NCBI GenBank assembly: GCA_036265815.1
Contig: DATAOI010000113.1
Coordinates: forward strand, 80,300-117,306
Source of the DNA: Gemmatimonadales bacterium
GTDB lineage: Bacteria; Gemmatimonadota; Gemmatimonadetes; Gemmatimonadales; GWC2-71-9
Reading direction: 5' to 3'
DNA length: 37,007 nucleotides
Part shown: piece by piece, positions 4,267-9,032 of the stretch
Numbering within the stretch: position 1 is the stretch's first letter
Layout of the letters: every line of letters begins with the position of its first letter
Notes under the pieces: generated by a model
What the model saw: only the letters and a program-made list of their open reading frames with translations
The model's database searches: none
What the model was told of the DNA's origin: nothing
Translations under genes and position numbers: made by a program

Positions 4267-6924
4267 GTGTCCTCCACTCCGACGCTCTGGACCGCCGGCG
4301 TCCTCCGCCAGGTATTGCCCAACGGCTTGACGCTGCTGGTCCAGGAGGATCGCTCCGCTCCCGTAGTCGCCGTGGTCACCCACGTCCAGGCGGGCTTTTT
4401 CGACGAGCCTGACCGCTGGATCGGCATCTCCCACGTTCTCGAGCACATGTTCTTCAAGGGCACCGAGCGCCGGGGCGTCGGCGCCATCGCCCGGGAGACC
4501 AAGAGCGCGGGAGGATATCTCAACGCCAGTACCAGCTACGACCACACCAACTACTTCGCCGTCCTGCCCGCCTCCGGGCTGGCAGCGGCGCTCGACATCC
4601 AATCCGACGCCCTCCGCCACTCGCTGATCGACCCGGGTGAGCTCGCCCGCGAGCTGCAGGTCATCATCCAGGAAGCCAAACGCAAGCTGGACACGCCGTC
4701 CTCGGTCACATACGAAACGCTGCACGAGGTGATGTTCGACCGCCACCGGATCCGCCGCTGGCGCATCGGGCACGAGGCCGAGCTGGCCGCGCTCACCCGG
4801 GACGACCTGTGGCAGTATTACCAGTCCCGCTATGTGCCCGAGCGCACCATCGTGGCGATCGTGGGAGCGGTCGAGCCGGAGCGGGCGCTCGCGCTGGCCG
4901 CCGCCCGATACGCCGATTGGGCGGCCCGACCGGGCGCGGTCGACCACTCGCCCGACGAGCCGCCCCACCGCGACGTGCGAGTCCGCACCCTGCGCGGCGA
5001 CGTGACCCAGGCGGAGCTGGCGCTCGGGTGGCGAACGGTGCCACCGCTGCACGTCGACTCCGCCGCGCTGGATGTCGCCGCGGCGGTGTTGGGCTCGGGC
5101 CGGGGGAGCTGGTTGCACGCCCGCCTCCGCGAGCCGGGAATCGTGACCTGGGCCGCGGCCCACAACTACGCTCCCACCGAGGTCGGTGTCTTCAGTATCT
5201 CGGCGGAGCTCGCGCCCGACCGGATCACCGCCGCGCTCGAGGGCGTCGCCGAGTCGGTGGCGCGCCTTTCGATGCTGGGGCCGACGGAGGAGGACGTCGA
5301 GCGGGCCAAGACGCTGCTGCGGGCGCGCTGGGCCCGCCGTCTGGAGTCGATGGAAGGTCGCGCCGCTTCCCTGGCCGCGGCCGAGGCGCTCGACGGTTTC
5401 TCGTTCCTCGATCGGGAGTACGAGGCGCTCGGCGCCGTCGGGCCGGACGACGCGAGGGCCGTTGCCGCCCGCTATCTGGATCCGGAGGGCGTGGCCGGCG
5501 TGGCCTACCTGCCCGACGGGGATGGGACCGAGCTGACCGTGGACGCGCTCGGGCGGCCGTTCGCGCTCTCCGGACTCGAGCCGTTGCCGGTCACCCAGGT
5601 GTCTCTTCCCACGCGCCAGCCGCCGGCTTTCGTGACTGGCCGCCGGGAGGCCGAGGTCCTCCACGTCGCTCTCGCGGGCGTGGACCTGCTGCTCCGGCGG
5701 AAGCCGGGTGTTCCGCTGGTGACGCTGGGCCTCTACGCGCCGCGCGCACGTTTCGATCCCCCGTCCCAGGCGGGGCTCGGCTCGCTTACGGTGCGAAGCT
5801 CGGTGCGGGGAGCGGGCGGGCTCGATGCCGGCGGATTGGCCTTCGCCTTCGAGCGACTGGGCGGAACCCTGACTCCGACGGCGGCCTCCGACTGGCTCGG
5901 TCTGGGCACCACCGTCCTGGCAGAGCATCTGGCCGAAGCCGCGTCGCTGATCGATCTGGTGTACCGCACCCCGCATCTCTCCGCCGCGGACGTGGAGCTG
6001 GAGCGAGGGCTCCTGGTCGCCGAGGCGGAGCAGGTGACCGACGACATGTTCCGCTATCCGTTCCAGCTGGCCTTCGAGATCGCCTTCGGCGGGCAGGGGT
6101 ATGGCCTGCCGGTGATGGGACTTCCCCATACCCTGGCAGGCCTCACGGCCGCCGACGTCCGTGCCTGGCACGAGGCCGCCCTGCTTGGCATCAGACCGGT
6201 CGTGATCGCCGTGGGCGAGGTGGACCCGGACGAGGCAGCGGGGATCCTGGCGGGGGTATTTCAGGGTCACCCCACGCGGCCCGCGCTGGATCGTCTGCCG
6301 CCGGTCGACTGGGTCGTGAACGAGCCGGGTGGGGCGCCCAGCCGGGTGGTGCGCCGGGAGAAGGCACAAGCGGCCCTCGCCATGGGGTTTCCCGGTCCGG
6401 GCCGAGGCGATACCGACCGGGCCGCGGCACAGGTCTGGGCCGCGGTCGCGAGCGGGCTGGGAGGGAGGCTGTTCGAAGCGCTGCGCGACCGTCGATCGCT
6501 GGCCTACACGGTGGTCGCGTCCGCCTGGCAGAAGGCCCGCGCCGGGGCACTGGTCACTTACATCGCCACCTCGCCCGAGCGGGAAGACGAAGCCCGGGAG
6601 GCTATGCTGGAGGAGCTCGACCGCTTCGCCGGCGAGCCGGTCAGCCAGCCGGAGCTCAGGCAGGCCATCAACTACCTCGCGGGCCAGGCCGAAGTGAGCC
6701 GGCAGAGCGGAGGCGCGGTTGCAGGCGAGATTCTGGACGCCTGGGTGGCGGGACGCGGCTTGAGCGAGCTGATCGATCCGGCGGACGCATTTCGACGGGT
6801 CACCGCCGAGGACGTGCAGCGGGTTGCGGTGCGGTGCCTCGACCGCTCACGGCGCGTGGAAGGAGTCATTCGTGGCACCGGGGCCGTCCGGCCGAGGCTC
6901 GCCGCCCTTGGTGCGATCCCCTAG
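4267..6924 (+). CDS. M16-family zinc metallopeptidase (pitrilysin/processing-peptidase type)
   Basis: The 885-residue product carries both M16 halves in one chain. The N-terminal half has the inverted zinc motif HVLEH (His56, Glu59, His60) and the third ligand Glu136 (QVIIQEAKRKL), so it should be catalytically active. The C-terminal half (from about residue 455) has no zinc motif but keeps the conserved arginine/tyrosine loop GGRLFEALRDRRSLAYTV that binds the peptide end. There is no clear signal peptide, so a cytoplasmic location is likely unless the start is elsewhere. The GTG start follows a GAGG site 12 bp after the TPR gene. Its stop codon overlaps the stop of the convergent SpeD-like gene (shared bases 6922-6923). 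Confidence 0.95.
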   Translation: MSSTPTLWTAGVLRQVLPNGLTLLVQEDRSAPVVAVVTHVQAGFFDEPDRWIGISHVLEHMFFKGTERRGVGAIARETKSAGGYLNASTSYDHTNYFAVLPASGLAAALDIQSDALRHSLIDPGELARELQVIIQEAKRKLDTPSSVTYETLHEVMFDRHRIRRWRIGHEAELAALTRDDLWQYYQSRYVPERTIVAIVGAVEPERALALAAARYADWAARPGAVDHSPDEPPHRDVRVRTLRGDVTQAELALGWRTVPPLHVDSAALDVAAAVLGSGRGSWLHARLREPGIVTWAAAHNYAPTEVGVFSISAELAPDRITAALEGVAESVARLSMLGPTEEDVERAKTLLRARWARRLESMEGRAASLAAAEALDGFSFLDREYEALGAVGPDDARAVAARYLDPEGVAGVAYLPDGDGTELTVDALGRPFALSGLEPLPVTQVSLPTRQPPAFVTGRREAEVLHVALAGVDLLLRRKPGVPLVTLGLYAPRARFDPPSQAGLGSLTVRSSVRGAGGLDAGGLAFAFERLGGTLTPTAASDWLGLGTTVLAEHLAEAASLIDLVYRTPHLSAADVELERGLLVAEAEQVTDDMFRYPFQLAFEIAFGGQGYGLPVMGLPHTLAGLTAADVRAWHEAALLGIRPVVIAVGEVDPDEAAGILAGVFQGHPTRPALDRLPPVDWVVNEPGGAPSRVVRREKAQAALAMGFPGPGRGDTDRAAAQVWAAVASGLGGRLFEALRDRRSLAYTVVASAWQKARAGALVTYIATSPEREDEAREAMLEELDRFAGEPVSQPELRQAINYLAGQAEVSRQSGGAVAGEILDAWVAGRGLSELIDPADAFRRVTAEDVQRVAVRCLDRSRRVEGVIRGTGAVRPRLAALGAIP

Positions 6925-7241
6925 GCCAGCTCGGCCGATACTCCCAATCGCCGCGCGATCACCTCGACGCCCTTCCGCGGGTCCGCCGGGGCGCGGGCGA
7001 CGATATCCACCAGGCAGAGTCCTTCGGCCGGCGCGGTGTGGAGCACGATGTGCCCCTCGCGGCACAGCATGGCGATCACGACGCCGCCCGGACCATCCCG
7101 CACGACCGGCGGCCCCAGCGCCGGCATGCCCACCGCCCCCGCGGCCGCGACGACGACCGCCGAGAGACCGTGGGCGTCGGCAAGACGGGCGCCGGGCACC
7201 GAGGTGAGCTCCAGCAGTTGGTGATCGAAGGAAGGCTGCAC
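6921..7241 (-). CDS. SpeD-like protein lacking the pyruvoyl serine
   Basis: The 106-residue product aligns along its whole length with prokaryotic S-adenosylmethionine decarboxylase proenzymes, as judged by eye against remembered SpeD sequences. Shared features are the N-terminal HQLLEL segment, a GVVI strand, the CREGHIVLHTAPAEG loop (family SESHxxIHxxPExG), VDIV and a C-terminal helix ending RRLG. In active SpeD, the chain is cut before Ser in Glu-Ser-His and that Ser becomes the pyruvoyl cofactor. Here the triplet is Glu62-Gly63-His64 and the Gly codon is GGG. The following PE is PA, and the TCG motif holding the catalytic Cys is replaced by ARA. It should therefore be unable to self-process or decarboxylate by the known mechanism. 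It starts with GTG, converges on the M16 gene and diverges from the phosphatidyltransferase gene. A regulatory or ligand-binding role is possible but unproven. Confidence 0.75.
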   Translation of the reverse strand: MQPSFDHQLLELTSVPGARLADAHGLSAVVVAAAGAVGMPALGPPVVRDGPGGVVIAMLCREGHIVLHTAPAEGLCLVDIVARAPADPRKGVEVIARRLGVSAELA

Positions 7242-7292
7242 GCGAGAGTCTCGGCGGCGTCAGGCGCGGGCGGGTAGGGTATCTTCTACGCC

Positions 7293-7853
7293 ATGCCGTC
7301 CGAAGCTAGTCCGCGCCAGATGGGCGAGCAAGACCGACGCGACTGGACCATCGCCGATCTTCTGAGCGTGGTCCGGATTCCTCTGGCGGTGGCGTTCCCG
7401 CTGGTCTCCAACGATTGGCGTTTCGCCGTGCTGGCGACCGCGGCGGCAACCGATCTGCTCGACGGTCAGTTGGCCCGCCGGTTCGGCAGCTCCCGCTTCG
7501 GCGCGGTGATCGATCCAGTGGCCGACAAGCTGTTCATGGCCTCGGCGTTCGGGGTCGTGGCCCTGAGCGGGCGCCTGGAGATCTACGAGATCATCGGCGT
7601 CCTGCTGCGGGACATCGTGGCCACCGTCGCCTTCGTGGCGACCCTGGTGTCCAAGCGGCCCCGGGCGATTCCCGCCCGCGCCGGCGGCAAGGCCGTGACC
7701 GTGGCCCAGGTGCTCACCCTGATGGCGTTCCTGGCGGACTCGCCCCACCTTCGCGAGCTCGCCTGGGCCACCACGGCGGTCGCGCTCTACGCCATCTGGG
7801 ACTACTATCGCGCGGCGGAAACCGCCGGGCGATCGGTCGGAGGAATCAGGTGA
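7293..7853 (+). CDS. CDP-alcohol phosphatidyltransferase (PgsA-like)
   Basis: The 186-residue integral membrane enzyme transfers a phosphatidyl group from CDP-diacylglycerol to an alcohol. The catalytic signature D-x2-D-G-x2-A-R-...-G-x3-D-x3-D is complete: Asp54, Asp57-Gly58, Ala61-Arg62, Gly70, Asp74 and Asp78 (DLLDGQLARRFGSSRFGAVI, then DPVAD). Several hydrophobic helices surround it. The N-terminal LLSVVRIPLAVAF segment is typical of PgsA-type enzymes that make phosphatidylglycerophosphate, but the acceptor alcohol cannot be fixed from sequence alone. The ATG at 7293 is used; an internal ATG at 7320 is also possible. Its stop overlaps the GTG start of the OsmC gene, so the two are translationally coupled. 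Confidence 0.88.
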   Translation: MPSEASPRQMGEQDRRDWTIADLLSVVRIPLAVAFPLVSNDWRFAVLATAAATDLLDGQLARRFGSSRFGAVIDPVADKLFMASAFGVVALSGRLEIYEIIGVLLRDIVATVAFVATLVSKRPRAIPARAGGKAVTVAQVLTLMAFLADSPHLRELAWATTAVALYAIWDYYRAAETAGRSVGGIR

Positions 7854-8765: not shown

Positions 8766-9032
8766 TTACGCGGTGGCGCCCTCGACCGTCTCGACCTTCC
8801 GCTGGACTGGCTGGCAGAAGCGCTCGCCGAGCACGCGCAGCTGGCTCAGCTCCTCATCCGTCAGGGCGTCGTATCGGTCTGCCAGGTAGAGCATGGTGTC
8901 ATCGAACCAGTCCTTCTGATGCTCCGGAAGGGCGTCGATGACGCCACAGCGGAGGACATGACTGAACAACTCGTCGCGCGCCTGGGCGAAGGACACCGCG
9001 TCAGGGTCTTGCCGGATTTTCTTCTTGACCAT
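8766..9032 (-). CDS. small conserved-looking protein, unknown function
   Basis: The 88-residue product is soluble and mostly helical, with a basic start (MVKKKIRQDPDA) and acidic middle (EHQKDWFDDTMLYLADRYDALTDEELSQL). There is no signal peptide or known motif; its two cysteines (CGV, FCQ) are not in a CxxC arrangement. I do not recognise the family. The ATG has an AAGGAAG ribosome site 4 bases upstream. It has a good promoter with a palindrome inside it (9088-9116), implying regulated transcription, and ends at a stem-loop shared with the convergent gene. Confidence 0.75.
   Translation of the reverse strand: MVKKKIRQDPDAVSFAQARDELFSHVLRCGVIDALPEHQKDWFDDTMLYLADRYDALTDEELSQLRVLGERFCQPVQRKVETVEGATA

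Follow-up and report, generated by a model that had tools for sequence, protein, structure and literature searches.

A probable SpeD-fold pseudoenzyme family of single origin in Gemmatimonadota

Introduction

The class 1b S-adenosylmethionine decarboxylase (AdoMetDC, or SpeD) of Thermotoga maritima (PDB 1tlu, 1tmi) is the described enzyme with which the protein reported here shares the fold of the whole chain, the residue numbering and two histidines, His64 and His68. Human spermine synthase (PDB 3c6k) also has a SpeD-like fold in its N-terminal domain, which is non-catalytic and has a role in dimerisation. Self-processing of SpeD requires Ser63, His68 and Cys83 (PMC10407285), and dead relatives of the enzyme have been described: in Victivallis vadensis a degraded C-terminal SpeD domain, which has lost its active-site residues and does not self-cleave, is fused to an active SpeD (PMC10407285), and the AdoMetDC prozyme of trypanosomes is a eukaryotic, catalytically dead AdoMetDC relative that acts on a live partner (PMC5201418). 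The fold has been neofunctionalised with its pyruvoyl chemistry retained in SpeDA and SpeDC, arginine and ornithine decarboxylases that often occur without a spermidine synthase (PMC10407285); both papers are cited throughout from excerpts.

The protein considered here is encoded in a 37,007-nucleotide stretch of DNA from a Gemmatimonadales bacterium, the whole of which is referred to as the window. In contrast to class 1b SpeD it is without Ser63, Glu72 and Cys83 and is not encoded beside a spermidine synthase, and unlike SpeDA and SpeDC it cannot form the pyruvoyl group. The Victivallis half, the prozyme and the spermine synthase domain, the last as part of an aminopropyltransferase, all work on a live polyamine-metabolising enzyme or as part of one, whereas the family described here is free-standing and mostly partnerless: its carriers usually lack any SpeD such as that fused to the Victivallis domain, and most have no live partner of the kind that the prozyme acts on. 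A search of the open-licence literature in PMC found no paper on the present family, and the term 'Gemmatimonad' is absent from the main text of PMC10407285.

Results

Gene and predicted structure

The protein matches the Pfam family AdoMet_dc (PF02675) with an E of 7.8e-15 and 55.6 bits, above the cut-off of 25, whereas its 38 bits against the SpeD equivalog NCBIfam TIGR03330 lie below the cut-off of 75.65, and solved SpeDs are barely reachable from it by sequence alone (best E 0.022). An AlphaFold2 (AF2) model built from 34 relatives has a mean pLDDT of 94.3. Foldseek ranks 1tmi first, T. maritima SpeD with the S63A mutation that abolishes processing (E 5.4e-6, TMq 0.88), and VIA-align fits the model to it with a Z of 17.5 and an rmsd of 1.8 Å over 104 residues. 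The AdoMetDC/prozyme heterodimer (PDB 5tvm) matches the model at Z 8.1 and the spermine synthase domain at Z 9.5 over residues 5-114. The product is a real AdoMet_dc-fold protein, with a predicted fold closest to that of Thermotoga SpeD.

Table 1. Features of the dead speD locus in the window; neighbour frequencies refer to the 98 loci of the dead clade
Feature	Position	Strand	Details and basis
M16 peptidase, convergent neighbour	4267-6924	plus	Pfam; near 67/98 dead loci
Dead SpeD-fold pseudoenzyme gene (probable)	6921-7241	minus	106 aa; GTG start at 7241, stop 6921-6923
Arg83 codon, in place of catalytic Cys83	6993-6995	minus	sequence, alignment; role from PMC10407285 (excerpts)
Ala72 codon, in place of Glu72 invariant among intact SpeDs	7026-7028	minus	sequence, alignment
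His68 codon, kept; processing histidine in T. maritima	7038-7040	minus	sequence, alignment; PMC10407285 (excerpts)
Gly63 codon, site of pyruvoyl-forming Ser63	7053-7055	minus	sequence, alignment of 150 homologues
Intergenic region between the divergent dead speD and pgsA	7242-7292		51 bp; gene map of window
CDP-alcohol phosphatidyltransferase (pgsA-type), divergent neighbour	7293-7853	plus	Pfam E 6.4e-22; near 77/98 dead loci
88-aa ORF without significant Pfam family	8766-9032	minus	conserved near 75/98 dead loci

A chance open reading frame is ruled out by the Pfam match, by the dN/dS given below and by the codon-position G+C of the gene, which at 0.83/0.51/0.87 is similar to that of the adjacent genes, whereas a plus-strand ORF overlapping it (6824-7207) has values of 0.78/0.85/0.61, unlike both; the presence of same-locus homologues throughout an order leads to the same conclusion. 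Phage or plasmid cargo is likewise rejected, given that the locus is syntenic, that tblastn found no match to the protein in phages and plasmids, and that viral_contigs gave no confirmed match. The gene and that of the M16 peptidase are convergent and their stop codons overlap at 6921-6924, with a common CTAG.

Catalytic positions

Residue numbers of the window protein coincide with those of T. maritima SpeD. Residues 62-64 are EGH, and of the three residues on which a functional class 1b AdoMetDC depends only His68 is present, Ser63 and Cys83 being replaced; the combination of a pyruvoyl-forming Ser with His68 and Cys83, by which SpeDA and SpeDC are recognised, is missing too. The glutamate of the PE motif is lost, yet a Glu stands at the adjacent residue 73. 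The initial annotation of the sequence had proposed a SpeD fold in which the pyruvoyl group could not form and from which the catalytic Cys and the PE glutamate were missing; the profile search and the structural comparison, with T. maritima SpeD as the best match, bear out the fold, and the residues are as it described them (Gly63, Arg83 and Ala72).

Homologues and single origin

A Pfam search of 81 genomes, the window's own and 80 near relatives, gave an AdoMet_dc match in 39, with a dead copy in 34 of these, and a profile made from the 34 dead copies found matches in 129 of the 395 genomes of the phylum. The profile-matched loci, less the weak G208 and G352 and together with the Pfam-search matches, make up a set of 150 homologues from 133 genomes. 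Ninety-eight form one clade and are dead, whereas the other 52 keep Glu62, Ser63, His64, His68, Glu72 and Cys83. Within the dead clade residue 63 is Gly in 69 members, Cys in 27, Ala in two and Ser in none; Cys83 is gone from 97, and Glu62 and Glu72 are kept in only 8 and 25, but His64 is kept in 97 and His68 and Pro71 in 94 each. The Gly is shared by only part of the clade, and the restored Ser in orthologues, which the initial annotation had named as evidence against its reading, occurs nowhere in the clade. Cys63 is present in, for example, L106:5002-5334, and raises the question of whether an acyl shift or cleavage could persist in such copies.

In a tree computed with the active-site columns left out, the 98 dead proteins are one side of a single branch (SH-aLRT 95), the tree being based on 106 columns for 150 rows and having many unresolved inner forks. 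Residue 63 needs at least seven changes over this tree. Judged from the alignment and the tree, catalysis was lost once, earlier than the split of the two families that carry the gene, with Ser63 regained in no sampled member. A sequencing error or recent mutation at residue 63 is ruled out, as 98 homologues have the same loss. Six intact SpeDs (L097-L102) of f9, a different family within the class, are placed beside the dead clade, weakly, with a support of 68, and may be its nearest live relatives.

Selection and clade-specific constraints

The median dN/dS over the 45 pairs of 10 congeners is 0.28 (Nei-Gojobori; dS often about 1 or above), and mismatches by codon position in the same congeners are 0.27/0.18/0.53, the third position varying most; these codon comparisons place the dead speD genes under purifying selection. 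Residues D22, A33, A34, A36, G38, P45, V94 and R97 are constrained in the dead clade and variable among the intact proteins, whereas positions 51, 55, 56, 60, 62, 69, 72 and 83 show the reverse trend. Averaged over residues 9-100, the dead clade has no lower entropy than the intact group (1.69 against 1.50). None of the 98 dead proteins has a charged residue at any of the five helix 1 positions 28, 31, 32, 35 and 36, where the intact ones (n=52) have 2.04 on average, and the four helix 2 positions 90, 93, 97 and 98 hold a mean of 3.82 charged residues against 1.63, both sets of positions having been chosen post hoc from the alignment profile. The helix 1 change is partly common to the six live f9 proteins, which mostly have Gly32 and Ala35 and often Ala36, and the small-residue face may simply pack against helix 2. 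As read from the alignment, the pattern of constraint fits the gain of a new interface and not decay.

Locus and neighbours

The dead speD gene occupies a fixed slot in the order pgsA, cNMP-binding gene, dead speD, M16 peptidase. The cNMP-binding or NTP-transferase gene that many relatives have between dead speD and pgsA is missing from the window. Other genes near the 98 dead loci are the cNMP-binding gene (52 loci), a 520-aa gene (47) and a TPR gene (43); these counts and those of Table 1 are minimum values wherever a contig breaks off early, and are approximate in that they come from single-linkage clusters, some of whose representatives are shadow ORFs. The names cNMP_binding, NTP_transferase, TPR and K+ transporter, and those of the window genes M16, pgsA, OsmC, DsbA-like and VKOR, are based on Pfam, whereas M28, Big2, DoxX, DUF2461, AcsA and ArgJ are labels assigned from sequence without a search. 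Counted from the matched stretch, the end of an M28-type gene lies 7-34 bases upstream of dead speD in 15 loci, 7 loci have a Big2-type gene that abuts or overlaps it, and in 39 the 520-aa gene begins downstream at a median distance of 4 bases, a spacing that suggests operons. The same-strand neighbours vary, however, between M28 peptidase, NTP transferase, Big2-type lipoprotein, DoxX and the 520-aa membrane/TIM-barrel protein, so that no single partner is implied, and no one operon partner of dead SpeD was found among these loci. In seven relatives without dead speD the same neighbours are closed up (in G010, for example, about 21 bp separate the cNMP match from M16; G042, with a weak pgsA match, was left out), and given that the slot is otherwise intact the gene is dispensable.

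In the second family the gene of the 520-aa protein (L049:5414-6961 and relatives) is the next one downstream of dead speD. The one member scanned has no Pfam match; the model has membrane-like N-terminal helices and an alpha/beta part for which the best PDB matches, with low TM scores (0.36-0.45 of the query), are glycoside hydrolases, GH5 and beta-glucuronidase among them. The protein is not encoded adjacent to dead speD in the window and fails to account for the function of dead SpeD.

Intact SpeD and spermidine synthesis

A Ser63 homologue occurs alongside the dead copy in 16 of the 98 carrier genomes, that of the window included. None was found in the other 82, some of which are incomplete MAGs, and these include genomes that are 97-100% complete (for example G065, G069, G073, G075 and G077). 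Among same-genus relatives the dead copy is the sole AdoMet_dc match in 9 of 9. Seven of the 81 near genomes have a strong match to spermidine synthase (E < 1e-30), exactly the seven with a standard Ser63 SpeD, and in each of them the intact SpeD lies 0.3 to 3.4 kb from the synthase on the same contig; the intact copies thus adjoin spermidine synthase rather than the dead copy. PF01564 matches occur in 53 of the 81 genomes overall; the weaker ones, mostly in ORFs of about 500-1400 aa, are found with and without dead copies and may represent a distant aminopropyltransferase in those genomes. The dead SpeD is probably no part of spermidine synthesis.

Discussion

The product of dead speD is probably a neofunctionalised SpeD-fold pseudoenzyme, a homodimeric protein of binding, scaffold or regulatory role. 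It is almost certainly not a decarboxylase, and a new, non-catalytic function under selection is highly likely; the retention of the gene proposed in the initial annotation agrees with the 98-member clade, the fixed locus and the purifying selection. The protein would homodimerise as SpeD does, the old pocket (His64, His68 and Pro71) would persist as a putative binding site or structural core, and a helical face, formed by the charge-free, small-residue helix 1 and the strongly charged helix 2, could dock a protein or oligomer partner. A homodimer with a surviving pocket and a docking face would be expected to bind, to act as a scaffold or to be a regulatory subunit, and not to work as a decarboxylase. 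Docking through the helical face is offered only tentatively as the mechanism. There is a slight preference for regarding these proteins as a free-standing pseudo-AdoMetDC family, limited to one Gemmatimonadota order as far as searched, that forms a non-catalytic docking or sensor dimer with a remodelled helical face and works outside polyamine metabolism.

A narrower form of this explanation is that the protein is a small-molecule sensor, with SAM, MTA or another nucleotide bound in the old pocket. The retained His64, His68 and Pro71 and the cNMP-binding gene at about half of the loci are consistent with this; nevertheless it is rather unlikely, given that Glu72 is mostly lost and that positions 55, 69 and 70 are relaxed.

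It is also conceivable that the dead copy is a bacterial prozyme, by which an intact SpeD is activated or regulated, and for this there is the trypanosome precedent (PMC5201418, from excerpts) and the co-occurrence of a Ser63 homologue in 16 carriers. This scenario is very improbable for two reasons: first, the 82 carriers in which no Ser63 SpeD was found, several of them nearly or fully complete, make such a role unlikely in general. Second, where intact copies exist they lie beside spermidine synthase, away from the dead copy. Regulation of a true SpeD, one of the functions first suggested for the gene, therefore fails as a general role, and in the same-genus relatives the dead copy is alone. 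A still-active enzyme with migrated chemistry, in which the Cys63 forms make pyruvoyl or act as thiol enzymes, is no more credible: Cys63 might in principle be processed and the two histidines are nearly always kept, but most members, the window protein included, have Gly63, none has Ser63, and Cys83 and Glu62 are almost entirely lost. A decaying pseudogene with a mere appearance of conservation, to which the patchy presence (34 of 81 near genomes) and the clean absence from seven relatives might point, is least probable of all, given the dN/dS, the 98 copies with new invariant residues and a single origin before the two families split.

The neofunctionalised pseudoenzyme favoured here has a consequence for annotation by Pfam, which would label dead SpeDs as SAM decarboxylase and thereby imply spermidine synthesis in genomes that may lack the pathway; TIGR03330 is itself matched at E <= 1e-3 by 31 of the 34 dead copies of set A1. 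The clade offers SpeDs that are non-processing by nature, catalysis having been lost once, together with intact relatives and clean gene-absent loci, and the change from self-processing enzyme to non-enzyme is for this reason directly testable.

As to a canonical speD elsewhere in the window's genome, a divergent Ser63 SpeD of 207 aa exists on another contig (L050:4542-5165, contig C95); the genome has no PF01564 match. This second homologue sits on an 8.7-kb contig and is possible contamination. With its genome devoid of a PF01564 spermidine synthase, it is a candidate arginine or ornithine decarboxylase like SpeDA and SpeDC; it keeps ESH and the Cys, and Asp replaces Pro after HTW.
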